From Chloroflexota bacterium (GTDB lineage Bacteria; Chloroflexota; Anaerolineae; Anaerolineales; Villigracilaceae), in the NCBI GenBank assembly GCA_016213105.1, contig JACRBN010000014.1, positions 1-47,071 of the forward strand: a stretch of DNA of 47,071 nucleotides, written 5' to 3'. The notes beneath the pieces are model-generated. The model saw only the letters and a list, made by a program, of their open reading frames with translations, made no database searches and was not told where the DNA came from. This document shows, piece after piece, positions 2,476 through 26,639 of the stretch. The first letter of the stretch is position 1, and each line of letters starts with the position of its first letter. Made by a program: the position numbers and the translations under genes.

Positions 2476-2658
2476 TGCATTCTCCTTTTTGAATTTTGAG
2501 ACATAACTTTTTTCACTTTGCAAAACCGATTTTTTTTGGGAGCCAGCGGCCTCCTTTGGAAAGGGATGTATAAAATCCTGACGATAAATCACTCAGAAAA
2601 ATGGACGGGTGGGATGCGCCTGTCTAAAATACGCATCCCACCCGCTGAGGAGAATCAC

Positions 2659-3006
2659 CTACAACGCATTTTTTAGCACATCCAACACATCCTGCATGGA
2701 ATGGGCCGGGTGCGAGTGACCGGTCAATACGGTAACGGTATCCGTGAGCGCGTCCAGGCCGACCAACGCGATACCCGGCAGGCCGCGCAGTCTGGGCAGG
2801 GTATCCGCGATATTGTTGTCGCGCACATCAAAGGCAATCACATCCACACCGCTCAAATCTCCGACACAGCCGTCCTGCACCTGGGACACATCCCAGTCCT
2901 GCACCTGCGCCAGCTTGGAAATCAGCCCGGCGATCAAAATGGAATTCCCGTAGAGCAGGATCTTGTGGATCGATTTTGGATGAGCGGGACTCGGCTCCAG
3001 CGACAT
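2659..3006 (-). CDS. Small protein of unknown function, receiver-like fold possible
   Basis: I do not recognise this 115-residue protein. It has an alternating strand/helix pattern (KILLYGNSILIAGLISKL, VDVIAFDVRD, PGIALVGLDA) that resembles a degenerate response-regulator receiver, but I see no clear phospho-acceptor aspartate context. No signal peptide or membrane segment is evident. The ATG at 3006 has no good ribosome site. A promoter with a 17 nt spacer (GTGACA...TAATAT) places the predicted transcript start on the ATG, so leaderless translation is likely. It lies downstream of, and in the same direction as, the kinase-regulator fusion, but a strong terminator separates them. A dyad next to its -35 box suggests regulation. 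Confidence 0.6.
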   Translation of the reverse strand: MSLEPSPAHPKSIHKILLYGNSILIAGLISKLAQVQDWDVSQVQDGCVGDLSGVDVIAFDVRDNNIADTLPRLRGLPGIALVGLDALTDTVTVLTGHSHPAHSMQDVLDVLKNAL

Positions 3007-3012
3007 GTCGCC

Positions 3013-3041
3013 ATATTAGCCACAAGGGAGGGATTTGTCAC
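3013..3041 (-). promoter_or_regulatory. Predicted leaderless promoter of the 115-residue gene
   Basis: On the minus strand the -35 GTGACA (3036-3041) and the -10 TAATAT (3013-3018) are separated by 17 nt. The expected start of transcription falls at about 3006, on the A of the start codon. No Shine-Dalgarno sequence is seen. Confidence 0.45.
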
Positions 3042-3079
3042 TGTACCCTGGTGTAAAAACGGGTACAGTCAAGGTACAG
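3040..3079. promoter_or_regulatory. Dyad operator candidate with a third half-site
   Basis: ACTGTACCC (3040-3048) and GGGTACAGT (3061-3069) form a perfect 9 bp inverted repeat with a 12 nt spacer. A further GGTACAG follows at 3073-3079. The array abuts the -35 box of the 115-residue gene, where an activator or repressor would bind. The adjacent kinase-LuxR fusion is a plausible but unproven binder. Confidence 0.4.
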
Positions 3080-3111
3080 CGATTTAACAAATATGAAAGC
3101 CGGATTAAAAC

Positions 3112-3145
3112 GAAACCTTGCAAAGGTTTTGGCCTTTGCAAGGTT
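3112..3145 (-). terminator. Rho-independent terminator of the kinase-regulator gene
   Basis: AACCTTGCAAAGG (3114-3126) and CCTTTGCAAGGTT (3133-3145) form a perfect 13 bp stem with a 6 nt loop. On the minus strand the T-rich run TTTCGTTTTAAT follows. It lies just past the stop codon at 3199. Confidence 0.8.
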
Positions 3146-3198
3146 GATTCCTGCGTAAAATAATGCGGATTTGGGTGGTTATACCGCACTCGGGTATT

Positions 3199-6100
3199 CT
3201 ACGTACCTTTTTTCCTGCGCCCTTCCTGAAACTGGCGCACGTAGGCAATGCCCTGCTCGCGGTTCTCCAGGTGCAGGCGCTCCAAAATTTGCGCCATGTG
3301 ATATTTGATGGCGCGCTCGGTCAGGTTCAGTTCGTTGCCCGCTTCCTTGTAGGTCAGGCCGCGCGCCACAAGGCGCAGAACCTCCCACTGGCGCATGGTC
3401 AAATCCGCCGGGATGGTTTCCGCCCGAAATGCGGCGCTGCGTGGCGCGGCCGCGGGGCGATTAAACTCTGCCAGCAAACGCGCGGCCAGCCCGGGCGCGA
3501 TCTGGTTCTCACCGCGCACCGCTGCGCCCAGCATGGAAAAGATCTGGCGGGCGTCCAGGCTCTTCAATAAATAGCCCGAAGCGCCGTATTTGACGGCATC
3601 CAGCAGGTGTTCCTCCTCCTCCGAAACCGTCAACAGCACAACCTTGATCTCCGGGAATTCAGCCTTGATCAGGCGCGTGGCTTCGATCCCATCGCAGTTC
3701 GGCATTTGGACATCCATGATCACCACGTCCGGGCGCAGGGACTTGACCTGTTCGAGGGCTTCCAGCCCATCATGCGCCAGGCCGATGACCGTCAGGCCGC
3801 GCGCCGTCAACAGGTTGCGCATCCCATCCAAAAAGAGCGGCTGGTCATCCACCAACAGGATTCGCAGCCCGTGGATGTCTCCCAGGTCATCCTTGGATAC
3901 GGACGGCAGGACGCGCGGGATATGCACCAGCACGCGCGACCCCTGCCCGACGACAGAACGCAACTCCAGCCGCCCCCCGATCTGCTCGGCGCGCTCGCGC
4001 ATGATGCCCAGCCCGAAGTGTTTCTGCGCTGCGCCGGGCGCATCCTGCGGGTCGAAGCCGCGCCCGTCGTCGCTGACAATAAAAACGATCTCGTCCGAGG
4101 AGGTAGTGATCAACACTTCCACGCGCCGCGCCTCGGCGTGTTTGCGGATGTTGACCAGCGCCTCCTGGATAATGTGCAGCAGTTGGTCTTCCACCGCCTC
4201 CGGCAGCATCGGCAGGGTGCTTTGGGCCGGGCTGAAGACCGTCTCGATGCCCCAGGCCTGGTTGAAAGCGCGCAGGGATTCCCGCAGAACCCCGTAAAAA
4301 CTGCGCTGCGGCCTGGCAGAATCGCGCAAGCCAAAAATGGCATGACGCAGTTCGATGTGCGCCTCCTGCGCCGCCTGGACGATGCGTTCCAAATTCTCCT
4401 GCGCCGCCCCGACCTGGTTTTTTTCCAACAGGGTCTGGGCCGCCTGCGCCTGTACATTGACGAAACCGATCACCTGCCCGAAGCCGTCGTGCAGGTCGCG
4501 GCCCATCTTCTCGCGTTCTTCGGCCGCAGCCAGGTCGCGCGCCTGCTGAACGACACGCGACTCGGCCACCTCACGCTCATCCACCTCGTTCTGCAGGCGC
4601 TCATTGGCAGATTGCAATTGCTGCGTGCGCTCGGCCACGCGCTGTTCGAGATGGGTCACAAGCGAACGTAATTGCAGCGTCATCGAATTAAAGGAGGAGG
4701 TCAGGGAGCCAATCTCATCCCAGTATGCCACCGGCATTTCCACATCCAAATCGCCGTCTTCCACCTGTTTAATGCCAGCCAGTAAAGCATTCAACGGTTG
4801 GACGAGATTGACTCGAATCAGCAGCGGCAATGCCATCACCAGAAACAGGCTGCTGAGAACCACCAGCCAGGCCAGCGGGGTGATGAAGTCGTTCAGAAAA
4901 ACACGGAAATCCATGTAGAAATCCTGAATAACACCGCGCGGCCCGCTTTGTGAAATTCGCAAAATGTCCGAAGTCTGTTCGACTGGTTCCGCCGTTCCGG
5001 GCGTGACGCCGCGCAGCCAGGGATTGGCCGACGGCGTCGCATCCGCGTCAAAAACGAGCGGGTTGGGCAGGCCGTTATAGGTTACGTCAAAACTGCCGTC
5101 AGGATACAACACCGCCTGAAACGTGAAGATCGACTCCGGCTGGGAGAGCGCGGGTAAATGATCCCAGGTGACCAGCAACCGCTCCCCTTCGAGACGGGCA
5201 AACACGCCGCCGCCGTTGGCTGGTTCCAAATCCACCAACAGGGGCATGATGGCGGGGAATTGTCCGTACTCGTTTTGCAGGTTGGGATGGTATAACTTTT
5301 GTCCCATGATCAGAACGCCCACGCTGGTCACGGAGATTTCATGGTAGAGTTTTCCGTAAAACGGAAAATGAAAATCCACCCACTGGTTGCGGGCATCACC
5401 GCGCGAGGTGACGTTTAATTTTTCACCGAGGTCGGTCTCGAAATTAAATGGGATCTCCGCCACGGAATAACCGCCCTGCGAATTGGGCGTGTAGCGCAAA
5501 GTTTGATGGTCGCTGATCAGCGGGCGATACGCGGCGACATGCGCAGGCGTCACGGCCCAGCCGACCAATCCCAGCGCCGCCAGGAGCAGGGTCAGGGTTA
5601 TGCCGGAGAGTTTGCCCAGAAACGAAGTGTTTTCCGGCAGGTAGTTGAGATAGGCGGCGGCAAACAGGAAAAGCGTGACCAAAATGCCCAGCGAAAGCGA
5701 GGCGCTGTACGTAGTGGTGGAGATGAAAGAGAAGGCCCGCAAAATGTTCACGATGCTCAATGCAAAGAGCGGGATGAAAATTAGCGCGAACAAACGCGCG
5801 CCATGCGCTCCCAGGCCCCGCGGCTTCCAAAGTTTGCGCCACCACGCGATGGGACGCGCATCCGCGGCAACGGCCTGGCGAAAAAACGCCACGGGTACCC
5901 ACACAAACAAAATCGCCAGCGCATAATCGGCTTGTGGAATGCGGTAATCCACATCCCCCTGGCCCAGCAACAGTGAAAAACGGTAGATGGCGTATTGCGC
6001 CTCGTAAAGGAAATACAACAGGCTCAAACCCAATACGATCCTTGCTTCCCGTTTACGGGACGGGAAGAACACGGGAAAACGATAGACAAATTGAAGCAAA

Positions 6101-6357
6101 AGGAGCAGCGCGCCTGCCAGAGCCGTATTTTCCAGGTAAACAAAATACAAACGCGGCGTCGGCAGGGAAACCGCATCCAAAAACAACAATCCAACGAACA
6201 AGACGATCACCGCGAAGAAGCCGGTCAGCAGCAGCGTTTGCGCGCTTCGATTTTCGCGGAGGCGTAAGTGATGAAGGAGATAAAACGTAATCGCCAGGTT
6301 TAGGATTAATTGCGTCAGGTAACCAATGGAGGACGGAGTCAGATACCAGATTTGCAT
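3199..6357 (-). CDS. Membrane histidine kinase fused to a receiver and a LuxR-type DNA-binding domain
   Basis: A complete two-component system in one 1052-residue chain. About eight N-terminal membrane segments (residues 1-275) are followed by a roughly 200-residue extracytoplasmic domain, a further membrane helix with HAMP (about 490-570), a coiled coil and a HisKA_3 dimerisation domain whose phospho-acceptor is H623 in DLHDGFGQ. Then come a HATPase (DDGRGFDP, FGLGIMRERAEQIGG), a receiver from about 830 with D882 in VIMDVQMP, and a NarL/FixJ helix-turn-helix from about 985 (LTMRQWEVLRLVARGLT). In NarL-family systems the kinase and regulator are normally separate. Here the DNA-binding domain is tethered to the membrane unless it is cleaved. 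I see no internal stop or frameshift. The ribosome site is weak. Ligand and target genes are unknown. Confidence 0.9.
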   Translation of the reverse strand: MQIWYLTPSSIGYLTQLILNLAITFYLLHHLRLRENRSAQTLLLTGFFAVIVLFVGLLFLDAVSLPTPRLYFVYLENTALAGALLLLLQFVYRFPVFFPSRKREARIVLGLSLLYFLYEAQYAIYRFSLLLGQGDVDYRIPQADYALAILFVWVPVAFFRQAVAADARPIAWWRKLWKPRGLGAHGARLFALIFIPLFALSIVNILRAFSFISTTTYSASLSLGILVTLFLFAAAYLNYLPENTSFLGKLSGITLTLLLAALGLVGWAVTPAHVAAYRPLISDHQTLRYTPNSQGGYSVAEIPFNFETDLGEKLNVTSRGDARNQWVDFHFPFYGKLYHEISVTSVGVLIMGQKLYHPNLQNEYGQFPAIMPLLVDLEPANGGGVFARLEGERLLVTWDHLPALSQPESIFTFQAVLYPDGSFDVTYNGLPNPLVFDADATPSANPWLRGVTPGTAEPVEQTSDILRISQSGPRGVIQDFYMDFRVFLNDFITPLAWLVVLSSLFLVMALPLLIRVNLVQPLNALLAGIKQVEDGDLDVEMPVAYWDEIGSLTSSFNSMTLQLRSLVTHLEQRVAERTQQLQSANERLQNEVDEREVAESRVVQQARDLAAAEEREKMGRDLHDGFGQVIGFVNVQAQAAQTLLEKNQVGAAQENLERIVQAAQEAHIELRHAIFGLRDSARPQRSFYGVLRESLRAFNQAWGIETVFSPAQSTLPMLPEAVEDQLLHIIQEALVNIRKHAEARRVEVLITTSSDEIVFIVSDDGRGFDPQDAPGAAQKHFGLGIMRERAEQIGGRLELRSVVGQGSRVLVHIPRVLPSVSKDDLGDIHGLRILLVDDQPLFLDGMRNLLTARGLTVIGLAHDGLEALEQVKSLRPDVVIMDVQMPNCDGIEATRLIKAEFPEIKVVLLTVSEEEEHLLDAVKYGASGYLLKSLDARQIFSMLGAAVRGENQIAPGLAARLLAEFNRPAAAPRSAAFRAETIPADLTMRQWEVLRLVARGLTYKEAGNELNLTERAIKYHMAQILERLHLENREQGIAYVRQFQEGRRKKGT

Positions 6358-6778: not shown

Positions 6779-6877
6779 ATGAACAGGTTGTACGGAACGC
6801 CCGCCATCCTGGTCAGTATCCACGATACGGGTATCGGCCTGGATGCCCAACATCACGAACTGGTCTTCGAGAAGTAA
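6779..6877 (+). pseudogene. Fragment of a histidine-kinase ATPase domain
   Basis: A 32-codon frame ends GTPAILVSIHDTGIGLDAQH, then HELVFEK and TAA. It matches GTPAVQVSVRDTGIGLDAEH, then HELVFEKF, in the intact kinase about 1.15 kb downstream (around 7945-8030). Nucleotide identity is obvious over about 85 bp and stops abruptly at both ends. This is a remnant of a duplicated or recombined kinase gene. It contains only the G1-box region and cannot be functional alone. The codon that is TTC in the intact gene is replaced here by TAA. Confidence 0.8.
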
Positions 6878-6893
6878 ATGGCTGCTGTTTTTA

Positions 6894-6941
6894 CGGGGGG
6901 GATTGCTTCGGGCGAGGAACAAGAGCGCCCTCGCAATGACG
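6894..6941. repeat. Dispersed repeat copy (GATTGCTTCG ... CTCGCAATGACG)
   Basis: GGGGGATTGCTTCG at the left end and CTCGCAATGACG at the right end also occur at 34752-34830 in front of ileS, in the same orientation and with different internal sequence. Both copies are intergenic. Confidence 0.55.
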
Positions 6942-6994
6942 TATGCCGCCCAAATTTATCATCCAAAAGCAATATTCCGCCCGCGCGCGCTGGG

Positions 6995-7000
6995 TATACT
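6995..7000 (+). promoter_or_regulatory. -10 box for leaderless transcription of the cNMP-kinase gene
   Basis: GGGTATACT ends 7 nt before the ATG at 7008 and no Shine-Dalgarno sequence intervenes. The expected transcript start is on or next to the start codon. No clear -35 box is seen. Confidence 0.4.
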
Positions 7001-7007
7001 GAAAGGC

Positions 7008-8234
7008 ATGGACACCCCGCAGGATTTCGACAAAATCGCGCTGTTGAGCCTGGCCTTCCCCGGCCTGGCCGAGACCGACTTGCAGGAGATGTCCAGCCTC
7101 ACCCGCCTGAGCGCCTACCCCGCCGGGCACATCCTCTGCCAGGAAGGCGCCTACGAGGATGTCTTCTACATCCTCGCCGCGGGCAGCGCGGTCATCAGCA
7201 AGACCATCAGCCCACAGGAGGGCGAGCGTGTCCTGCGCGTCGCCGGGCGCGGCGACCTGATCGGCGAAATGGCCCTGGTGCAGAACGCCCCGCGCTCCGC
7301 CACCGTGCGCGCCGCCAGCGATTGCACCGTGCTCGAAATGAACAAACGCGATTTCGAAGCCATGCTCGGCCGCAGTCCCAGCATGGCCCTCGACATCATC
7401 CGCACCACCGTCAACCGCATGCGCGAGAACGACCAGACCGCCATCCAGTACCTGCAAAACACCAACAAGGTGCTGCGCCAACTCGACCGCAACAAACTGG
7501 AGTTCATCCAGGTGGCCGCGCACGAGCTGCGCACCCCCTTGACCGTGGTCAAGGGTTACGTCGACCTGCTGCGCAACTACAAAGGCCTGCCGGCCGACCC
7601 CGCGCTGGGCGGGATCATGGAGGGCATCCTCAAGGGCGCGGACCGCATGCACGAGGTGGTCAACACCATGCTGGACGTGTCGCGCATCGACAGCGAGACG
7701 CTCAAGGTGAACCCCGCCCCGCTCCCGTTGAAGCGCGTGATCCAGGATACCGTTCAGGATTTCTCCGAGGCCGCCGCGGCGCGCCGCATCACCCTGACCC
7801 CCGAGCTGGACCCGGCCACCCCGCAGATCAACGGCGACCCAATCCTGATCCAGAAGGCCCTGGCGCAGTTGATCGTCAACGCCATCAAGTACACCCCCGA
7901 CGGCGGGACGGTGACGATCTCCTCGCGCGCGCTCACCCTCGAAAACGGGACGCCCGCCGTCCAGGTCAGCGTCCGCGATACGGGCATCGGCCTGGATGCC
8001 GAACATCACGAACTGGTCTTCGAGAAGTTCTACCAGGTGGGGGACGTGAAGATCCACTCTTCGGGCCGCACAACCTTCAAGGGCGGAGGCCCCGGGCTGG
8101 GACTGGCCATCGTGCGCGGCGTGGCGCGCGCGCACGGCGGGAAGGCCTGGGTCGAAAGCCCCGGGCACGATGAGGTCAACTTCCCCGGCAGCACCTTCCA
8201 CCTGCTGCTGCCCGTCGACCCGCCCCGCGCCTGA
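7008..8234 (+). CDS. Cyclic-nucleotide-binding-domain sensor histidine kinase
   Basis: A soluble sensor kinase of 408 residues. An N-terminal cNMP-binding/CRP-like beta-barrel (about 5-135, with GDLIGEMALVQNAPRSATV, the phosphate-binding-cassette region) is joined to HisKA with the phospho-acceptor H172 in AAHELRTPL. A HATPase_c domain follows (NAIKYTPDGG, DTGIGLD, GPGLGLAIVRG). The CRP-type domain suggests control by a cyclic nucleotide or another small ligand; this is inferred from the family. I chose MDTPQDFD at 7008 because the 55 codons upstream in the same frame run through the kinase fragment and a dispersed repeat, and a -10 box lies just before this ATG. No receiver gene is adjacent, so it is an orphan kinase. 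Confidence 0.88.
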   Translation: MDTPQDFDKIALLSLAFPGLAETDLQEMSSLTRLSAYPAGHILCQEGAYEDVFYILAAGSAVISKTISPQEGERVLRVAGRGDLIGEMALVQNAPRSATVRAASDCTVLEMNKRDFEAMLGRSPSMALDIIRTTVNRMRENDQTAIQYLQNTNKVLRQLDRNKLEFIQVAAHELRTPLTVVKGYVDLLRNYKGLPADPALGGIMEGILKGADRMHEVVNTMLDVSRIDSETLKVNPAPLPLKRVIQDTVQDFSEAAAARRITLTPELDPATPQINGDPILIQKALAQLIVNAIKYTPDGGTVTISSRALTLENGTPAVQVSVRDTGIGLDAEHHELVFEKFYQVGDVKIHSSGRTTFKGGGPGLGLAIVRGVARAHGGKAWVESPGHDEVNFPGSTFHLLLPVDPPRA

Positions 8235-17129: not shown

Positions 17130-20100
17130 ATGAAACCATTGACGAGGAAACACTCTCACCCAGCTTCCAAAGTACCAGCGGCCCGCCCCATGCGACTGAT
17201 GGTGTTGACCCTGATCGCGGTTCTGGCTGCATTTGGCACCTATACCATCGTACAGGCCGCCCCAAACTTTGTACCCAATCTCTTGGCAACCATGACCGAT
17301 GCCTTCATCGGCGGTGATGGGGATGGAAAAGCAGATCCGGGTGAGACCATTGAATATACGGTCTCCATCCCGAACACCGGCACAGATGCGACAGGTGTGG
17401 CCTTCAACGATACCATCGACGCGAATACCACGCTCGTACCTGGGTCGGTCTACGCTTCTCCAGTGGCGTCCAACGATACCTACCCTGAAATCATTGTAGG
17501 AAATGTCTCGATCGATTCTGCGCTGATCTCCTACAGCGTGGTATCGAACGATTATCTGGGACAGAATCCCACCGCGGCCATCACGGCCTTCGACGCACTC
17601 AGCGCCCAGGGTGGACAAGTCAGCATGACCACCAGCGGCGCTGGGCTTGGACAATTTACCTACAACCCACCGACCGGCTACGAAGGCATCGATACCTTCA
17701 CCTATACCCTGACCGACAACCCGAACGCCGCCAGCGCGGCTTCGAACCGCACGGCCACGGTTTCGATCAACATCAGCGGGATGGTCTGGTTCATCAATAA
17801 CGGTGCAACAAGCTGCACAGTAAATGGCTGCGGACGCCTCTCCAACCCGTTCAGCACGCTAGCGGCTTTCAACTCGGTGAACGATGGCGTCAACGGCCCA
17901 TTTTCCAACCACCCGGCCGCCAACGACAACATCTTCATCTATGAAAGCGGCACTGCATACACGGGCGGAATCACGCTCCTGAGCAACCAAAAGTTGATCG
18001 GTCAGGATGCAACTGCCAGCCTGTCTTCGATCACTGGGCTGACACTTACCCCCAGCAGCAGCGCAGCCTTCCCAGCGATGGCCCCGGGAGCGCCAAATGC
18101 CACGATCCAAAACGGCGGCGGCAACGCCATCACGCTGAATTCAGGCAACACCATCCGCGGCTTGAGCATCTCGGGCACCAGCGGCGCGGGCTTGATCGGC
18201 ACAGGCGTCACCACGTTGACGGTCGGTTCCGATGTGAGCTTGAGCGGTATCACCGGCAATGACCTGGATCTGAGCGGCGCAGCCAGCGGCGCGATCGATT
18301 TTGGGGCAAGCATCACCAATACCAGCGGGCGCGCGGTCTCGATCCAAAACCGCAGCGGCGGCGCGGTAAACCTGAGCGGCGCGATCAGCGACAACGGCGG
18401 CACAGGTATTTATCTCAACAGCAATACTGGCGCCACCCTTACCTTCTCGGGTGGATTGAATCTCAGCACGGGCGCGAACGCGGCCTTCACGGCTACCAAC
18501 GGCGGCACGGTCAACGTTTGTGACGAGTCAGCCTGTAACCCTGGGGCGACAGGCCCATTGGTAAACAGCCTGACGACCACCACAGCCACCGCATTGAACG
18601 TCAACGCGACTGGCATCGGCGCGAACAACCTGGAATTCAGGAGCATTTCATCCAACGGCGGCAGCGCCACGGGCATCATCCTGGTCAACACGGGAGCGAG
18701 CGGCTCGCTGGTCGTCAAGGGTGACGGCGGCACCACCAGGGGCGGGAACAGCACGGGCGGCACGATCACCAACAAGACGGGCGGCACGGATGGGAACGGC
18801 TCAACCGCCTCCGCTGTGTATATCAACAGCGGTTCCGCCATCCTGCGCAATATGACCATGACCCGTCTCGATAACTATGGCGTGTACGGTCTGAGTGTCA
18901 ACAATGTGACCGTTCAGTACAGCACGATCGGCGCCATCTCGGGCGCGGCCTGCGCCGACGCCGATGGCGACATCGGCTCGACCTCGGCATCTGGCGATGC
19001 GGCCCTGGTCTTTGGCATCAGCAACCCAGGCGGCTCGAATGGTTTTGCCAATGGCGGCAGCCTGCTGCTGGACAACCTGAGGGTCTATTGTTCCATCGAG
19101 CACCAGGTCGAGATTTACCAGCAGAGCAACAGTTTTACGGCCACGATTTCGAACAGCGACATCAAGGATGCCAGTACCAGCCTGGGTGGCGACGGCGTGC
19201 AGACTGAGATGCAAGGGTCTGCCACCGCCACCATCACCGTGGATAATGTCAGCTTCGATGACAACAAGTCGCAGGCTGTGCAGGCGGCTGCCAATGATAC
19301 CTCCACGCTGGATATGACCGTGAGAAACTCCACCCTTGTGCGCAGTTCACAAGGGAACGAGGGTATTCTCATGTCCAATGGGAGCAGCGGACGTCTCACT
19401 GCCCATATTACCGGAAATAATATAAGTGGGATTCCGGGTGCAAATATTTTTGTTGGGCAAACGCCGGGGAACGCCACGGCGGCATCCTCTCTTACTGCTT
19501 ATATCGGTAATAACAACATCACGCATCCAACCACTGCGACCAACAGCGCAGTCCTGGTATGGCTGACCAGCACGGCTGGTGCGGGCGCCCCGGCCAATGT
19601 CATGGTCACGAACAATATCATTACCCAGAACTCCACTGGTGGCGTCTCGCGCGGTATTTTTGTAGACACACCGGACGCTGGCACCAACCCGAATTTTTCC
19701 GTCACCGTGCTGTCGAATACCGTTCACGTGAATGATTCAATAGCAGGCCTTCAGGGCATTGTGGTCCAGGGACGCCAGGCCTCCACTGCCTGCTATGATG
19801 TCCGCTCCAATCTTGTGGATTTCCCGAGCGGCACGCCGGCCGGCGTCAATGGGATTCGTATTCGACAGGCCAACACGGCGACCGTAAACCTGGAACAAGG
19901 TTCTTCAGCAGGCGCTGCTGCGACTGTGCTGGCTGCCAACAATCCTCCCAGCACTGCAGAAGCGTTGGGAACCGTCTCTGTGGTTGGCAATAGTACCTGT
20001 CAAAACCCGCCTGTAGCAGCCCTGCCTTCCAGCCAGACGGTGGCAAGCACCCAGCCCGTTGAGGATGCTGCCGCAGCCGTCGCCGCCCCGATCTCCACGG

Positions 20101-23100
20101 GCACACTGGCCGCCGCCACTGTCCGCGTTGAACGCAGCAAAGCAGATATGGCCTCCAACACTGGCAGCGGGAAGCCGCTCTTCATCGTCAACCCGAAGCC
20201 CCTGCAATCGGGTGAGACGGTTAGCGTAACCATCGGCAACCTGCCCGCAGGCAAGACGGCCATCATCAAGTTCCGTGTGACGGTCAACGGCCCATCCCTG
20301 CCGCTGGGCACCACCCAACTCTCGACCCAGGGCACGGTCAGCGCCACCAACGGCACCAGCACCCTGACGGATGATACTGCTCTCGGTGGCTCCAGCGATC
20401 CGACCATTACCCTGGTTGACCGCCCCGACACCACTGTGGTCTCCCTCACCCGCCAGAGTGGCAACCCGACCAAAAACGCTACTGTCACCTGGCAGGTCGT
20501 CTTTGCCGATGCAGTCGACAGCTTGACGGCCAGCAACTTCAGCCTGGTACAGGCTGGCGGCGTCAGCGGAGCCTCCATCACCAGCGTCACCGAAACCAGC
20601 GGGCCTCCCTCCACCACCTGGAATATCACCGCCAGCACCGGCAGCGGCGATGGCACCCTGGGCCTGAACTTTGCCAACGACACCGGCCTGACGCACGACG
20701 TGACCAACGCGGTCTTCACGGGTCAGGTCTATACCATCGACCGCACGCCGCCCACCGTCACCATCAACCAGGCCGGCAGCCAGGCTGACCCGACCGGCAG
20801 CAGCCCGATCCACTTCACGGTCGTCTTCAACGAGCCGGTTACTGGATTCGCCGATGGCGATGTGACCCTGGGCGGCACGGCCAACCCGACCACCGCCACC
20901 GTCACCGAGATCGCCCCCAACGACGGCACCACCTACGACGTGGCCGTCAGCGGCATGAGCGGCGACGGCACCGTCACCGCCAGCATCGGCGCAAGTGTGG
21001 CCCAGGATGCGGCCGGCAATGGCAACGACGCCTCGACCAGCGGCGATAACAGCGTGACGTATGTCCGGCCGGCCGACCTGTCCATCACCAAGACCGACGG
21101 CGCAGCCACGGCGACGCCCGGCGGCAATGTCACCTACACCATCACCGCCAGCAACGCCGGGCCGTTTGCCGACCCGGCCGCAACCGTGGCGGATACCCTG
21201 CCAGCCAGCCTGAGCGGCGCGACTTGGACCTGCGTCGGCGCGGGCGGCGGAACCTGCACCGCAGCCGGCTCCGGCAACATCAACGATACCGTCAACCTGC
21301 CCGTGGGCGGCTCGGTCACCTTCACGGTCACCGCCGCCATCAGCCCGACGGCCACGGGGACGCTGTCCAACACGGCCACGGTCACATCCAGCCTCAGCGA
21401 CCCGAATTCCGCCAACAACAGCGCCACCGACACCGACACCCTCAACCCGCAGGCTGACCTGGCCATCACCAAGACGGATGGCGCAACTTCGGCGTCACCG
21501 GGCAGCAACGCCACCTACACCATCACCGCCAGCAACGCCGGTCCGAGCAACGCCCCCAGCGCGACCGTGGCCGACACCCTCCCGGCCAGCCTGAGCGGCG
21601 CGACCTGGACCTGCGTCGGCGCGGGCGGCGGCACCTGCACGGCAGCCGGCTCTGGCAACCTCAACGAGAGCGTCAACCTGCCAGCAGGCGGCTCCGTCAC
21701 CTTTACGCTCACCGCCACCCTCGATAGCGGCGCCAGCGGCAGCCTGAGCAATACAGCCACGGTCACCGCCGCGGGCGGAGTCACCGACCCGTCTCCCGCC
21801 AACAACAGCGCCACCGATGTGGACACCATCGCCCCGAGCGCCGACCTGTCCATCACCAAGACTGACGGTACAGCCACGGAAATCCCGGGCAGCAACGTCA
21901 CTTACACCATCACCGCCAGCAACGCCGGGCCGCTGGCTGACCCTGCCGCCACCGTGGCGGACACCCTGCCAGCCAGCCTGAGCGGCGCGACCTGGACCTG
22001 CGTCGGCGCGGGCGGCGGAACCTGCACCGCAGCCGGCTCTGGCAACATCAATGACACCGTCAACCTGCCGGTGGGTGGCTCCGTTACCTTTACGGTCACC
22101 GCCGCCATCAGCCCGTCGGCCACCGGGACGCTGTCCAACACGGCCACGGTCACATCCAGCCTCATCGACCTGAATTCCGCCAACAACAGCGCCACCGATT
22201 CCGACACCCTCACCCCACAGGCCGACCTGTCCATCACCAAGACCGACGGTGTGGCCTCGGCGACGCCCGGCAGCAATGTCACCTACACTATTACCGCCAG
22301 CAATGCCGGGCCCAGCAACGCCCCCAGCGCCACCGTGGCTGATACCTTCCCTGCCTCCCTGACCGCCAACTGGACTTGTGTGGGCGCGGGCGGCGGCACC
22401 TGCACCGCCTCGGGCTCTGGCAACCTCAACGATACCGTCAACCTGCCCGTGGGCGGCTCGGTCACTTATACCGTCAGCGCCACCATCAGCCCCTCGGCCA
22501 CCGGTACCCTGTCCAACACGGCCACGGTCACATCCAGTGTCACCGACCCGGCTCCTGGCAATAACAGCGCCACCGATACCGACACCCTCAACCCGCAGGC
22601 CGACCTGGCCATCGCCAAGACGGACGGCGCAACTGTGGCCATCCCCGGCGGCAGCGTCACCTACACCATTACCGCCAGTAACGCCGGGCCAAGCAATGCC
22701 CCCGGCTCAACCGTGGCAGACACCCTTCCGGCCAGCCTGAGCGGCGCAACCTGGACTTGTGTCGGCGCGGGCGGCGGCACCTGTACCGCTGCGGGCGCGG
22801 GCAATATCAACGATACCGTCAACCTGCCTGCGGGCGGCTCGGTTACCTATACCGTCTCTGCCACTTTGAGCATCAGCGCCAGCGGCACCCTGAGCAATAC
22901 AGCCACGGTAGCCGCTCCAGGTGGAGTAACCGACCTGTCGCCAGCCAATAACAGCGCGACGGATACGGATACCATCGCCCCGCCGGTGGATGTGACCATC
23001 GACCAGGCCGGCAGCCAGGCCGACCCGACCAACGCATCGGCCATCAACTTCACTGTCGTGTTCGGCTCTGCCGTGACCGACTTCAATGATCCAACCGACG

Positions 23101-26100
23101 TGACCCTGAGCGGCACAGCCGGCGCGACCACCATCAACATCACCGGCGGCCCGACCACCTACAACGTGGCGGTCAGCGGCATGACCGGCGATGGCACGGT
23201 AATCGCTTCCATTCCAATGGGCGCAGCAGCAGGATCGCTTGGCGAGCCCAATGCCGCCTCCACCAGCGGCGACAACACAGTGACCTACGACGCCACCGCC
23301 CCGACCGCCACGGTCGAACAGGCAGCTGGACAACCTGACCCGACCGGCCTCAGCCCGATCCACTTCACGGTCGTCTTCAGTGAACCCGTCACGGGCTTCG
23401 CCAGCGGCGATGTGACCGTGGGCGGCGGTTCCAACCCGACCACCGGCACTGTCACTGAGATTGCGCCCAATGACGGCACCACCTTCGACGTGGCAGTCAG
23501 CGGCATGGCCAATGATGGCACCGTCACCGCCAGCGTCGGCGCAAACAAGGCCCAGGACGCAGCCGGCAACGGCAACACAGCCTCCACCAGCGGCGACAAC
23601 TCCGTGGTGTATGACACCGTCGTCCCGTCTGTAACCATCGACCAGGCGGCGGGACAACCCGACCCGAGCAACAGCGGCACGATCAACTTCACCGCAGTCT
23701 TCAGCGAACCCGTCACAGGCTTCGCCACCGGCGATGTGACCCTGGGAGGCACGGCCAACCCGACCACCGGCGCCGTGACCGAAATCGCGCCCAACGATGG
23801 CACCACCTACAACGTGGCCGTCAGCGGCATGACCAACGATGGCACCGTCACCGCTTCCATCGACGCGGCCAAGGCCAAGGACGCCGGCAATAACGACAAC
23901 ACTGCGTCCACCAGCGGCGACAACACTGTCATCTATGACGCCACCGCCCCGACCGGCACCATCAACCAGGCGGCGGGACAGGCTGACCCGACCAATAGCG
24001 GCCCGGTCAATTTCACGGTCGTCTTCGACGAGCCTGTCACGGGCTTCGCCACCGGCGATGTGACCCTGGGAGGCACGGCCAACCCGACCACCGGTGCCGT
24101 TACTGAGATCGCGCCGAACGATGGCACCACCTACAACGTGGCCGTCAACGGCATGGCCAACGATGGCACCGTCATCGCTTCCATCACCGCCAGCAAGGCG
24201 CAGGATGCGGCCGGCAACGACAACGCGGCCTCCACCAGCGGCGATAACACGGTGACCTACGACGCCACCACCCCGACCGCCACGGTCGAACAGGCAGCTG
24301 GACAACCTGACCCGACCGGCCTCAGCCCGATCCACTTCACGGTTGTCTTCAGTGAACCCGTCACGGGCTTCGCCAGCGGCGATGTGACTGTGGGCGGCGG
24401 GTCCAACCCGACCACCGGCACAGTCACTGAGATTGCGCCCAATGACGGCACCACCTTCGACGTGGCAGTCAGCGGCATGGCCAATGATGGCACCGTCACC
24501 GCCAGCGTCGGCGCAAACAAGGCCCAGGACGCAGCCGGCAACGGCAACCAGGCCTCCACCAGCGGCGATAATTCCGTGGTGTATGACACCGTCGTCCCGT
24601 CTGTGACCATCAATCAGGCGGCAGGCCAGGTCGACCCGACCAACAGCAGCCCGATCGACTTCACGGTCGTCTTCAGTGAACCTGTCACAGGCTTCGCCAC
24701 CGGCGATGTGACCTTGGGCGGCACCGCGGGCGCCACGACCGGCACCGTCACCGAGATCGCCCCCAATGATGGCACCACCTACAACGTGGCCGTCAGCGGC
24801 ATGACCAGCGATGGCACCATCATCGTCTCCATTGCGGCGGGCGTGGCCCAGGATGCCGGCAACAACGACAACACCGCCTCCACCAGCACCAATGACACGG
24901 TCACTTACGACACCACCGCTCCCGACGTCACCATCGAACAGGCGAGTGGACAGGCCGACCCGACCAAGGTCAGCCCGGTCAATTTCACGGTCGTCTTCGA
25001 CGAGCCTGTCACGGGCTTCGCCAGCGGTGACGTGACCCTGGGCGGCACGGCAGGCGCCACGACCGGCACCGTGACCGAGATCGCGCCCAATGACGGCACC
25101 ACCTACAACGTGGCCGTCAGCGGCATGACCACCGGCGGAACCATCATCGCTTCCATCAACGCCAGTGTGGCACAGGACAGCGCCGCCAATGGCAACACCG
25201 CCTCGACCAGCATCGATCACACGGTCGCCTTCACCTTCGACACCACCACGACCATCACGTCCGACACGCCCGACCCGTCCATCGTCGGCGAGGCGGTTAC
25301 CTTCACCTACACCGTCACCGTCAACGGCGGCAGCGGCATCCCGACCGGCAACGTGACCGTCTCAGATGGCACGAATAGCTGCACCGATACCGTGGCCACA
25401 GGCTCCTGCACGATCACCTTCACCACGCTGGGCAGCAAAACCCTGACCGCCACCTATGAAGGCGACGCCAACTTCAACACCAGCACCTCGACCAGCGTCA
25501 GCCACCAGGTCAACAACGCCAACACGACCACGACCATCACGTCCGACGCCCCCGATCCCTCCATGGTCGGTGATGCGCTCACCGTGAACTTCACCGTGGC
25601 GGTCGTCGCACCGGGCACCGGCACTCCGACCGGGAACGTGACCGTCAGCGATGGCGTGGACTCCTGCATCGGCACAGTCGCCAGCGGCTCCTGCTCGATC
25701 ACGCTGACCACCTCCGGCCTGCGCAACCTGACCGCCAGCTACGAAGGCGACGCGAACTTCGGCAGCAGCACGTCCGCGGCCGAGAACCACACCGTCAACG
25801 CGGCGCCCGCCATCACCAGCCCGGATCACATCACCTTCGTGGTGCAGACGGCTGGTTCCTTCACCATCCTGACCAGCGGCTTCCCTGTTCCCACCCTGAA
25901 CAGCGCGGGCCTACTGCCCAGCGGCGTCACCTTCGTGGATAACGGCGACGGCACCGCCACCCTGAGCGGCACGCCCGACCTCGGAACGAGCGGCGACTAC
26001 CCGCTGACCTTCACCGCCAGCAACGGCACCACCGACGCCACCCAGAACTTCACTCTGACCATCAGCGTCGACCCGATCTTCGATGACGTGCCCAACGATT

Positions 26101-26639
26101 TCTGGGCGGCCCCGTACATCAACGCCATCTATTATGCAGGCATCACCGGCGGCTGTACCTCCTCGCCGATGAACTTCTGCCCGAACGCCTCCATCACCCG
26201 CGCCCAAATGGCGGTCTTCCTGAAGCGCGGCATCCACGGCAGCAGCTACCAGCCTCCGCTCCCGGCCTCCTTCCACTTCAACGACATCATCGGGCACTGG
26301 GCACAGAACTGGATCGAGGATCTGTACAGTGAAGGCATCACCGGCGGATGCGGTCTGTCACCCTTCTCCTACTGCCCGGATCAGCCGGTCACCCGTGCCC
26401 AAATGTCGGTCTTCCTGCTGCTCCTCAAGCACGGAGCAGGCTACACCCCGCCGCCCGCCTCGGGAGCCGTCTTCACGGACGTCCCGGACACGCAATGGGC
26501 CGCGGCCTGGATCGAACAGCTCGCAGCTGAAGGCATCACGGCAGGCTGCGGAAGCGGAAAGTACTGCCCCGATGCCCCCGTCACCCGCGCCGAAATGGCC
26601 GTGCTCATCGTCACAACCTTGAACCTGGTTCTGCCGTAA
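17130..26639 (+). CDS. Giant cell-surface protein: beta-helix, DUF11 and Ig-like arrays, C-terminal SLH modules
   Basis: A 3169-residue exported protein, probably anchored to the cell wall by its C-terminal SLH modules and extending a long stalk. Order: signal peptide (1 to about 44); a DUF11-like and a cadherin-like repeat (45-215); a parallel beta-helix-like region rich in Asn/Ser/Gly turns (about 215-960); an isolated Ig-like unit near 1207-1312; five DUF11 repeats (1315-1950, ADLSITKTDG at the start of each); seven tandem Ig-like units (about 1954-2706) with FTVVF.EPVTGFA.GDVTLGG; two Big_3-type repeats; a putative Ig domain; three SLH modules (about 2984, 3050 and 3115 onward). Each SLH module has a cysteine pair in the loop (GGC...CP). 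AAGGAG lies 7 nt before the ATG. It resembles surface adhesins or matrix proteins of Chloroflexota. The ligand is unknown. Confidence 0.88.
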   Translation: MKPLTRKHSHPASKVPAARPMRLMVLTLIAVLAAFGTYTIVQAAPNFVPNLLATMTDAFIGGDGDGKADPGETIEYTVSIPNTGTDATGVAFNDTIDANTTLVPGSVYASPVASNDTYPEIIVGNVSIDSALISYSVVSNDYLGQNPTAAITAFDALSAQGGQVSMTTSGAGLGQFTYNPPTGYEGIDTFTYTLTDNPNAASAASNRTATVSINISGMVWFINNGATSCTVNGCGRLSNPFSTLAAFNSVNDGVNGPFSNHPAANDNIFIYESGTAYTGGITLLSNQKLIGQDATASLSSITGLTLTPSSSAAFPAMAPGAPNATIQNGGGNAITLNSGNTIRGLSISGTSGAGLIGTGVTTLTVGSDVSLSGITGNDLDLSGAASGAIDFGASITNTSGRAVSIQNRSGGAVNLSGAISDNGGTGIYLNSNTGATLTFSGGLNLSTGANAAFTATNGGTVNVCDESACNPGATGPLVNSLTTTTATALNVNATGIGANNLEFRSISSNGGSATGIILVNTGASGSLVVKGDGGTTRGGNSTGGTITNKTGGTDGNGSTASAVYINSGSAILRNMTMTRLDNYGVYGLSVNNVTVQYSTIGAISGAACADADGDIGSTSASGDAALVFGISNPGGSNGFANGGSLLLDNLRVYCSIEHQVEIYQQSNSFTATISNSDIKDASTSLGGDGVQTEMQGSATATITVDNVSFDDNKSQAVQAAANDTSTLDMTVRNSTLVRSSQGNEGILMSNGSSGRLTAHITGNNISGIPGANIFVGQTPGNATAASSLTAYIGNNNITHPTTATNSAVLVWLTSTAGAGAPANVMVTNNIITQNSTGGVSRGIFVDTPDAGTNPNFSVTVLSNTVHVNDSIAGLQGIVVQGRQASTACYDVRSNLVDFPSGTPAGVNGIRIRQANTATVNLEQGSSAGAAATVLAANNPPSTAEALGTVSVVGNSTCQNPPVAALPSSQTVASTQPVEDAAAAVAAPISTGTLAAATVRVERSKADMASNTGSGKPLFIVNPKPLQSGETVSVTIGNLPAGKTAIIKFRVTVNGPSLPLGTTQLSTQGTVSATNGTSTLTDDTALGGSSDPTITLVDRPDTTVVSLTRQSGNPTKNATVTWQVVFADAVDSLTASNFSLVQAGGVSGASITSVTETSGPPSTTWNITASTGSGDGTLGLNFANDTGLTHDVTNAVFTGQVYTIDRTPPTVTINQAGSQADPTGSSPIHFTVVFNEPVTGFADGDVTLGGTANPTTATVTEIAPNDGTTYDVAVSGMSGDGTVTASIGASVAQDAAGNGNDASTSGDNSVTYVRPADLSITKTDGAATATPGGNVTYTITASNAGPFADPAATVADTLPASLSGATWTCVGAGGGTCTAAGSGNINDTVNLPVGGSVTFTVTAAISPTATGTLSNTATVTSSLSDPNSANNSATDTDTLNPQADLAITKTDGATSASPGSNATYTITASNAGPSNAPSATVADTLPASLSGATWTCVGAGGGTCTAAGSGNLNESVNLPAGGSVTFTLTATLDSGASGSLSNTATVTAAGGVTDPSPANNSATDVDTIAPSADLSITKTDGTATEIPGSNVTYTITASNAGPLADPAATVADTLPASLSGATWTCVGAGGGTCTAAGSGNINDTVNLPVGGSVTFTVTAAISPSATGTLSNTATVTSSLIDLNSANNSATDSDTLTPQADLSITKTDGVASATPGSNVTYTITASNAGPSNAPSATVADTFPASLTANWTCVGAGGGTCTASGSGNLNDTVNLPVGGSVTYTVSATISPSATGTLSNTATVTSSVTDPAPGNNSATDTDTLNPQADLAIAKTDGATVAIPGGSVTYTITASNAGPSNAPGSTVADTLPASLSGATWTCVGAGGGTCTAAGAGNINDTVNLPAGGSVTYTVSATLSISASGTLSNTATVAAPGGVTDLSPANNSATDTDTIAPPVDVTIDQAGSQADPTNASAINFTVVFGSAVTDFNDPTDVTLSGTAGATTINITGGPTTYNVAVSGMTGDGTVIASIPMGAAAGSLGEPNAASTSGDNTVTYDATAPTATVEQAAGQPDPTGLSPIHFTVVFSEPVTGFASGDVTVGGGSNPTTGTVTEIAPNDGTTFDVAVSGMANDGTVTASVGANKAQDAAGNGNTASTSGDNSVVYDTVVPSVTIDQAAGQPDPSNSGTINFTAVFSEPVTGFATGDVTLGGTANPTTGAVTEIAPNDGTTYNVAVSGMTNDGTVTASIDAAKAKDAGNNDNTASTSGDNTVIYDATAPTGTINQAAGQADPTNSGPVNFTVVFDEPVTGFATGDVTLGGTANPTTGAVTEIAPNDGTTYNVAVNGMANDGTVIASITASKAQDAAGNDNAASTSGDNTVTYDATTPTATVEQAAGQPDPTGLSPIHFTVVFSEPVTGFASGDVTVGGGSNPTTGTVTEIAPNDGTTFDVAVSGMANDGTVTASVGANKAQDAAGNGNQASTSGDNSVVYDTVVPSVTINQAAGQVDPTNSSPIDFTVVFSEPVTGFATGDVTLGGTAGATTGTVTEIAPNDGTTYNVAVSGMTSDGTIIVSIAAGVAQDAGNNDNTASTSTNDTVTYDTTAPDVTIEQASGQADPTKVSPVNFTVVFDEPVTGFASGDVTLGGTAGATTGTVTEIAPNDGTTYNVAVSGMTTGGTIIASINASVAQDSAANGNTASTSIDHTVAFTFDTTTTITSDTPDPSIVGEAVTFTYTVTVNGGSGIPTGNVTVSDGTNSCTDTVATGSCTITFTTLGSKTLTATYEGDANFNTSTSTSVSHQVNNANTTTTITSDAPDPSMVGDALTVNFTVAVVAPGTGTPTGNVTVSDGVDSCIGTVASGSCSITLTTSGLRNLTASYEGDANFGSSTSAAENHTVNAAPAITSPDHITFVVQTAGSFTILTSGFPVPTLNSAGLLPSGVTFVDNGDGTATLSGTPDLGTSGDYPLTFTASNGTTDATQNFTLTISVDPIFDDVPNDFWAAPYINAIYYAGITGGCTSSPMNFCPNASITRAQMAVFLKRGIHGSSYQPPLPASFHFNDIIGHWAQNWIEDLYSEGITGGCGLSPFSYCPDQPVTRAQMSVFLLLLKHGAGYTPPPASGAVFTDVPDTQWAAAWIEQLAAEGITAGCGSGKYCPDAPVTRAEMAVLIVTTLNLVLP
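20749..21066 (+). repeat. Isolated Ig-like unit of the 324 bp family
   Basis: Encodes VTINQAGSQADPTGSSPIHF and onward. It is one copy of the same module as the array at 22989-25247, but it lies before the DUF11 block. This shows the two repeat classes have been shuffled. Confidence 0.75.
21072..22979 (+). repeat. Five tandem DUF11 repeats of about 378-387 bp
   Basis: Units start at 21072, 21453, 21840, 22221 and 22599 (lengths 381, 387, 381, 378 and about 381 bp). Each encodes AD(L)(S/A)I(T/A)KTDG ... YTITASNAGP ... WTCVGAGGGTC. The DNA conservation is high enough to open long spurious frames on the complementary strand. Confidence 0.85.
22989..25247 (+). repeat. Seven tandem Ig-like units, six of exactly 324 bp
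   Basis: Unit starts are 22989 (315 bp), then 23304, 23628, 23952, 24276, 24600 and 24924, all spaced exactly 324 bp (108 codons). The units at 23304 and 24276 are almost identical in DNA, with only about ten differences including synonymous sites. This points to a recent duplication or gene conversion across a three-unit (972 bp) distance. Confidence 0.88.

Follow-up and report, generated by a model that had tools for sequence, protein, structure and literature searches.

How could a two-component system work when its histidine kinase, its receiver and its DNA-binding domain all sit in one membrane protein, and which genes would such a protein control? The question is raised by a gene on the minus strand of a 47,071-nucleotide stretch of a Chloroflexota contig (JACRBN010000014.1, positions 1–47,071; hereafter the window). 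The answer favored here, with a probability of about 0.6, is that the gene encodes a hybrid two-component regulator that would act from the membrane and activate the neighboring genes for a small receiver-like protein and a surface protein through a predicted operator adjacent to its own gene. A preliminary description of the locus had pointed out the fused gene, and had not noticed the downstream hairpin, the dyad with its promoter, the small receiver-like gene, the secreted-protein gene or the nidogen-like external domain.

The fused gene is a single frame for 1,052 amino acids, with an ATG start and no internal stop (window 3199–6357). Its Pfam domains over cut-offs follow one another in the order HAMP, HisKA_3, HATPase_c, Response_reg and GerE (Table 1), and the catalytic residues H623, D837/D838, D882, T910 and K932 are intact. 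The kinase, having HisKA_3 over the cut-off, the phospho-acceptor histidine and the N and G boxes, is of the HisKA_3 (NarX-like) class; the regulator half, having a receiver with D-D, D, T and K and a GerE helix-turn-helix (HTH, E 1.5e-11), is by sequence of the NarL/FixJ class. NCBIfam NarQ (5.2e-44) and NarL (1.3e-37) are nearest for the two halves, both far below their cut-offs, and the solved structures close by sequence include DesK, on the kinase side, and VraR and NarL, on the regulator side. Seven transmembrane (TM) helices pass a strict hydropathy cut here and nine in homologue L130, which makes the "nine or so" of the preliminary description fair; its claim that one chain holds an entire two-component system whose NarL-type output is tethered to the membrane is likewise supported.

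Is the fusion real, and how widespread is it? Full-length fused relatives with the same domain order are found in other assemblies (e.g., L009, L010, L116, and L117), two contigs of other assemblies carry one with 66% identity in the best segment and two extra PAS domains, and L049, another fused copy, is encoded in one frame of 1,028 amino acids in the own genome. Searches with a profile of the kinase–receiver–HTH part, which was built from fused rows and therefore favors fused proteins, gave at least 23 full-span, stop-free matches, spread over at least 12 of the 100 family genomes, and at least 20, spread over at least 16 of the 301 phylum genomes, the own genome included in both; these are lower bounds from matches not all read individually. 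The preliminary description had called a HisKA_3–NarL fusion uncommon, and this needs qualifying in view of these counts and of a 2023 survey that names Chloroflexota as rich in hybrid transmembrane transcription regulators (TTRs; PMC10269533). A whole-protein search of genome contigs confirmed 10 loci, of which only two are full length, both in Chloroflexota; occurrence outside this phylum is poorly covered by the searches made. Plasmid records matched in 2,885 cases, and among 40 viewed, 31 have two features under the match, 8 have none and 1 is unannotated, so that no annotated one-gene fusion was seen among these 40.

For phylogeny, 91 kinase–regulator pairs were collected, of which 28 are fused and 63 are split. 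The phospho-acceptor histidine is present in 26 of the 28 fused rows, and D882 and K932 in all 28. In a 90-row tree, from which L054 was left out owing to Ns at its junction, the 27 fused rows form three groups, namely 23 with the window (SH-aLRT 96), L090/L091 and L102/L109, and the fused or split state changes 3 times, compared with a mean of 23 after shuffling. In a more careful tree of 53 rows (37 of the 63 split rows dropped, among them L012 and L013), the group of 23 is supported at 92/95, short of the star given by the tool. Grouping all 27 fused rows together is rejected there (p-AU 8.9e-7), and grouping 25 of them without L102/L109 is not (p 0.4); at least two separate fusions are therefore indicated. 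The group of the window spans families f1, f8, f11, f21, f34, and f35, some outside its order and class, and the fusion thus appears to be old or well spread. Because 23 fused Chloroflexota proteins cluster and a second fused copy exists in the own genome, a missed frameshift does not account for the fusion.

Two other fused proteins, L039 (505–2871) and L053 (2695–5193), have the order HisKA_7TM–PAS–kinase–receiver–HTH with the phospho-acceptor histidine changed to lysine; they are predicted pseudo-kinases with a tethered regulator, and a small receiver-like gene still adjoins the fused gene in both.

The region downstream of the fused gene points to possible targets. Reading along the minus strand, the fused gene is followed by a terminator-like hairpin, a CTGTACC half-site, a dyad of related half-sites, a promoter-like site and the small receiver gene, and the predicted operator lies about 130 nt beyond the stop codon of the fused gene. 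The promoter was also called by a separate scan. No second copy of the dyad occurs in the window at up to 3 mismatches, nor any in 100 shuffles, and no Rfam match at E ≤ 1 is seen in window 2500–3300. When the pattern CTRTACY-N10..15-RGTAYAG (14 scored positions) was sought in the 330 nt on either side of fused genes, it was found downstream of 9 out of 26 when up to 1 mismatch was allowed (the window, L116, L117, L119, L122, L133, L009, L010, and L056) and downstream of 11 when up to 2 were allowed, L049 and L130 being added. Upstream, in 330 nt or as much as the contig contains, it was found in none of 27 regions at up to 2 mismatches, and a shared operator upstream of the fused gene was rejected on this ground. 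After L049, the own-genome paralogue, two copies of the related sequence ACTATACC lie 11 bp apart at the corresponding position. Furthermore, the best −35 box begins 1 nt before the end of the dyad in 10 of 11 loci, and the summed promoter score over the 11 loci is 91, compared with a mean of 67.2 and a maximum of 82 in 300 shuffles.

In whole genomes, the exact pattern has one site each in the own genome (G000) and in G161, both in the gap after the fused gene. G154 has two, one after the fused gene and the other about 200 nt 5′ of another secreted-protein gene (DUF7933); G087, G226, and G196 have none. Eight further genomes gave five exact matches in four of them, one of which (G199) follows a fused gene. 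G161 gains two more sites when 2 mismatches are allowed. In the gaps before the small gene at L057, L066, L058, L030, L051, L039, and L053, there are long hairpins that have T-runs and arms resembling GACAGTC/GTACAGTC, and these arms share letters with the operator half-site.

The gene beyond the promoter encodes a small protein whose family resembles a receiver. In a comparison of the family with receivers by hhalign, the probability is 93% with E 3e-7, and the score of 45.1 exceeds those of 50 column shuffles (≤17.6) and of the reversed profile (17.6), so that the similarity holds at the profile level. In the family alignment of 16 rows, D60, at the place of the phospho-acceptor, is invariant; the D-D pair is replaced by G-N in the window protein, and the similarity to the receiver profile ends short of the lysine, so that the full acidic triad with lysine is not seen. 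The window protein has no Pfam match even at E ≤ 10, and other members have stray matches only. A structure model made from two sequences (pLDDT 74.7) has many receivers among its weaker Foldseek matches, none at E ≤ 0.001. With L007 dropped because it duplicates the window, the small gene has 37 distinct loci, and in 31 a regulator HTH lies directly upstream of it; for 8 of these 31, the regulator was seen to be fused. Among the six remaining loci, two are near a contig end, and in L010 the fused gene lies further upstream. On the 90-row tree, the small gene accompanies 14 of 35 testable rows of the group near the window and none of the 48 others, with 3 and 4 rows, respectively, cut by contig ends. 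A search of the order gave matches to the small family in 48 of 201 genomes at E ≤ 1e-6, the weakest matches looking like ordinary receivers of full regulators. At L138 (6916–7590, G087), an AIM24-family gene lies between the fused gene and the small gene. By eye, most weaker members of the small family (L156–L171) come after a regulator gene, and the genes that come next are of lipoprotein, Tat-signal or haem-protein-like type.

The next gene encodes a secreted surface protein (Table 1). By one rule, the gene after the small gene is signal-like in 28 of 36 cases, compared with 9 of 87 background open reading frames (ORFs), from which five target genes had been removed; by eye, several other next genes are of Tat type or mis-started. 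The domains of next genes include TIG and SLH (L135), sortase and TIG (L139), SLH and Ig-like (L141), sortase (L134), beta-helix (L120), and Listeria–Bacteroides repeats (L118), with no match in L056.

Taken together, these features suggest the following scheme. The sensor, consisting of eight TM helices and a nidogen-like external domain, would pass a signal, presumably that of a ligand, to a dimer of HisKA_3 kinases by way of a ninth helix and HAMP. The phosphate would go first to H623 and then to D882 in the receiver tethered to the kinase. This would free the paired NarL-type HTH domains, and the freed pair, still bound to the membrane, would bind the multi-half-site operator past the stop codon of its gene. 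Because the sites adjoin the −35 box with repeats of 11–12 bp, class II activation is suggested, in which HTH domains bound at sites overlapping the −35 box would switch on the promoter of the next two genes, one for the degenerate receiver and one for the secreted surface protein. This small receiver would probably feed back on the regulator; as a guess, it could compete for phosphate or for the kinase. In hybrid two-component systems (HTCS), tethering pairs the DNA-binding domains, which are therefore held off until phosphorylated (PMC11253607), and by analogy the same need to hold the paired HTH domains off should apply to the fused protein. A more far-reaching version, tentative and doubtful, is a self-contained local switch for the envelope, in which nascent insertion of the one-chain regulator during transcription would bring together the gene, an operator that is nearly the sole one in some genomes, and the anchored HTH; the outputs would be a surface protein and, as a kind of decoy, a small receiver by which the phospho-signal is drained or gated.

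Several points weigh against activation of the neighbors by the fused protein. The pattern was drawn up after seeing the window, L116, L117, L010, and L056. Of the loci that joined later, L009 nearly duplicates L010, which leaves L119, L122, and L133 as new cases, two of them (L119 and L133) being paralogues within a single genome. At 15 of 26 downstream regions, no dyad is present even at 2 mismatches. G183, G210, and G243 carry matches elsewhere, a reversed control pattern matches 1, 1, 1, 0, 0, and 0 times in the first six genomes, which puts chance at about one per genome, and in the eight further genomes the control matches 11 times compared with 5 for the pattern. Since the control matches as often or oftener, the number of sites is no proof, and the evidence for the dyad is the place of its sites. 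Promoters of L117, L122, L133, and L056 alone are no better than shuffles (p 0.31–0.85). The small gene is missing beside many fused genes. The ten target genes for the secreted-protein comparison were hand-picked; when the first ORF after each fused gene was taken without selection, 11 of 23 were signal-like. In the window, a hairpin seen by eye lies between the small and the secreted genes, which perhaps do not form one operon.

The least improbable of the alternatives, though not a likely one, is that the targets of the HTH lie elsewhere, with the dyad serving a different regulator and the neighbors present by coincidence. Another regulator could indeed own this predicted site, and many fused genes are without both dyad and small gene; it speaks for ownership by the fused protein that the dyad follows fused genes of the subgroup of the window in several genera, was not found before them, and has a counterpart in the repeats after the paralogue. 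Repression of the downstream promoter by the fused protein appears improbable: sites overlapping promoters can also repress, but the array lies upstream of the −35 box and touches only this element, with half-sites repeated at 11–12 bp. Both G154 operators have TATAA at 33–34 nt, by eye, one helical turn further than the distance of about 23 nt at other loci, and activation fits this better.

The junction between kinase and receiver bears on whether the regulator half stays tethered, as activation from the membrane would have it. The linker has 7–23 residues in 27 of 28 fused rows, the 79 residues of L097 being due to a profile match that ends early, and neither its length nor its sequence is conserved. 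The preliminary description supposed that the output domain works from the membrane or is released, and a conserved protease site between HATPase and receiver was looked for; none was seen in the linkers of the 28 fused rows, and the idea of release by a protease was rejected on this ground. As to internal starts, the region tested in the fused gene of the window begins 10 residues ahead of the linker and runs to the receiver; its sole in-frame ATG, GTG or TTG codons are a GTG at 20 and another at 18 residues before the receiver. Both fall in the end of the ATPase domain, and the linker itself has no start codon. In-frame starts near the receiver are irregular among fused rows, and the best internal Shine–Dalgarno energy has a median of −4.4, compared with −7.4 at regulator starts of split pairs (Mann–Whitney p 0.0014), yet 12 of 27 reach −5. 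A free receiver–HTH protein made beside the full chain, giving in effect an ordinary two-component pair, is thus the least probable alternative and unlikely, since its best signs (an energy of −7.0 at the GTG 20 residues before the receiver, and an ATG 2 residues before it in L009, L060, and L061, where split regulators start) are met by an ATC at that place in the window, energies of only −1.1, −1.1, and −3.5 in those three, no in-frame start within 25 residues in 3 of 27 fused rows (L063, L064, and L097), and a GTG that sits in the GxGTRV-coding stretch of the ATPase domain.

Table 1. Predicted features of the locus, by position in the window.
Feature	Position	Strand	Remarks
Fused sensor kinase/response regulator gene	3199–6357	−	1,052 aa
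N-terminal multi-TM region, residues 1–270, about eight helices	5548–6357	−	Hydropathy; homologue positions
External domain, residues 266–495, nidogen-like	4873–5562	−	Weak profile matches
HAMP, residues 517–564	4666–4809	−	Pfam, over cut-off
HisKA_3 dimerization/phospho-acceptor domain, residues 614–680, H623	4318–4518	−	Pfam E 5.9e-13, over cut-off
HATPase_c, residues 722–815	3913–4194	−	Pfam E 2.8e-15, over cut-off
Receiver (Response_reg), residues 833–942, D882	3532–3861	−	Pfam E 5.1e-29, over cut-off
LuxR/NarL-type HTH (GerE), residues 986–1038	3244–3402	−	Pfam E 1.5e-11, over cut-off
Terminator-like hairpin 3′ of fused gene, 13 pairs, T-rich tail	3114–3145	−	
Extra half-site CTGTACC (minus strand), 11 bp from next half-site	3073–3079	.	
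Predicted operator dyad ACTGTACCC-N12-GGGTACAGT	3040–3069	.	Sequence pattern
Sigma-70-type promoter-like site GTGACA-17-TAATAT, −35 overlapping end of dyad	3013–3041	−	
Small degenerate receiver-like protein, 115 aa	2659–3006	−	Profile comparison
Secreted protein: L-type-lectin-like (below cut-off), Big_3_5, TIG repeats	97–2592	−	Likely start ATG 2475, by eye

The sensor end, residues 1–505, has matches in 16 of the 27 other fused proteins; that in L025, a gene broken by a frameshift (from assembly or real), is partial, and L056 is cut by a contig end. The same module of TM helices and nidogen-like domain heads split HisKA_3 kinases (L022 and L032), as well as a HisKA kinase (L026) and GGDEF proteins (L027, L028, and L037), and it is therefore regarded as a portable sensor. 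Of 26 homologous external domains, 20 match Pfam NIDO at E ≤ 0.1 (best 1.6e-5); that of the window scores 14.5 bits (E 0.035), below the cut-off of 25 bits. A profile search of solved structures found only RemA (E 0.06), and the structure model has a low pLDDT of 38.4. The domain is thus best described as nidogen-like, not as a member of NIDO. Elsewhere in the window, a divergent neighbor (6843–8234) resembles, by eye, a cyclic-nucleotide-binding and histidine-kinase protein, and an ORF at 17130–26639 encodes a signal-like secreted protein of 3,169 amino acids.

The kind of protein is known, from the HTCS of Bacteroides and from hybrid TTRs, which are reported for Chloroflexota. Bacteroides-type HTCS sensors have a Y_Y_Y/propeller periplasmic domain. 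Like the fused protein, an HTCS is a single polypeptide made up of a membrane sensor kinase, a receiver and a DNA-binding domain, and its paired DNA-binding domains must stay inactive without a signal (PMC11253607). It differs in its AraC-type HTH: the fused protein combines a HisKA_3 kinase with a NarL-type HTH, and among its 13 Pfam families at E ≤ 1, there is GerE and no HTH_18. Furthermore, instead of a Y_Y_Y/propeller sensor, it has an external domain with weak NIDO similarity only, placed after about eight TM helices, and it has a small receiver-like neighbor; the HTCS gene adjoins a polysaccharide locus, whereas the fused gene adjoins a surface-protein gene. The systems nearest by sequence to the two halves, NarX/NarQ–NarL, LiaSR/VraSR, and DesKR, consist of two separate proteins. 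Regulators of the CadC/ToxR type also bind DNA from the membrane, as is predicted here, and have no kinase or receiver.

By definition, having TM helices with kinase, receiver and DNA-binding domain, the fused protein is a hybrid TTR (PMC10269533). In the text consulted, that survey gives no family, target or operator for Chloroflexota, says that how a membrane-anchored transcription factor works is poorly understood, and describes hybrid TTRs as recent, with no conservation at the level of genus, class or phylum (PMC10269533). The clade described here spans several families and classes and, for at least one family of these proteins, speaks against this generalization. No description of the family, operator or small partner was found by title or abstract start in the open-licence literature, and the other kinase class, the DNA-binding domain and sensor, the small receiver-like partner and the predicted operator look new. 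The predicted operator is short, defined and adjacent to the gene, so that direct tests of binding, of activation by a membrane-bound protein and of the effect of distance are feasible. Compared with the known systems, the fused protein thus appears to represent a second design of hybrid two-component regulator, whose fusion has long been kept and whose proposed targets, in the poorly known Chloroflexota, would be cell-surface proteins.

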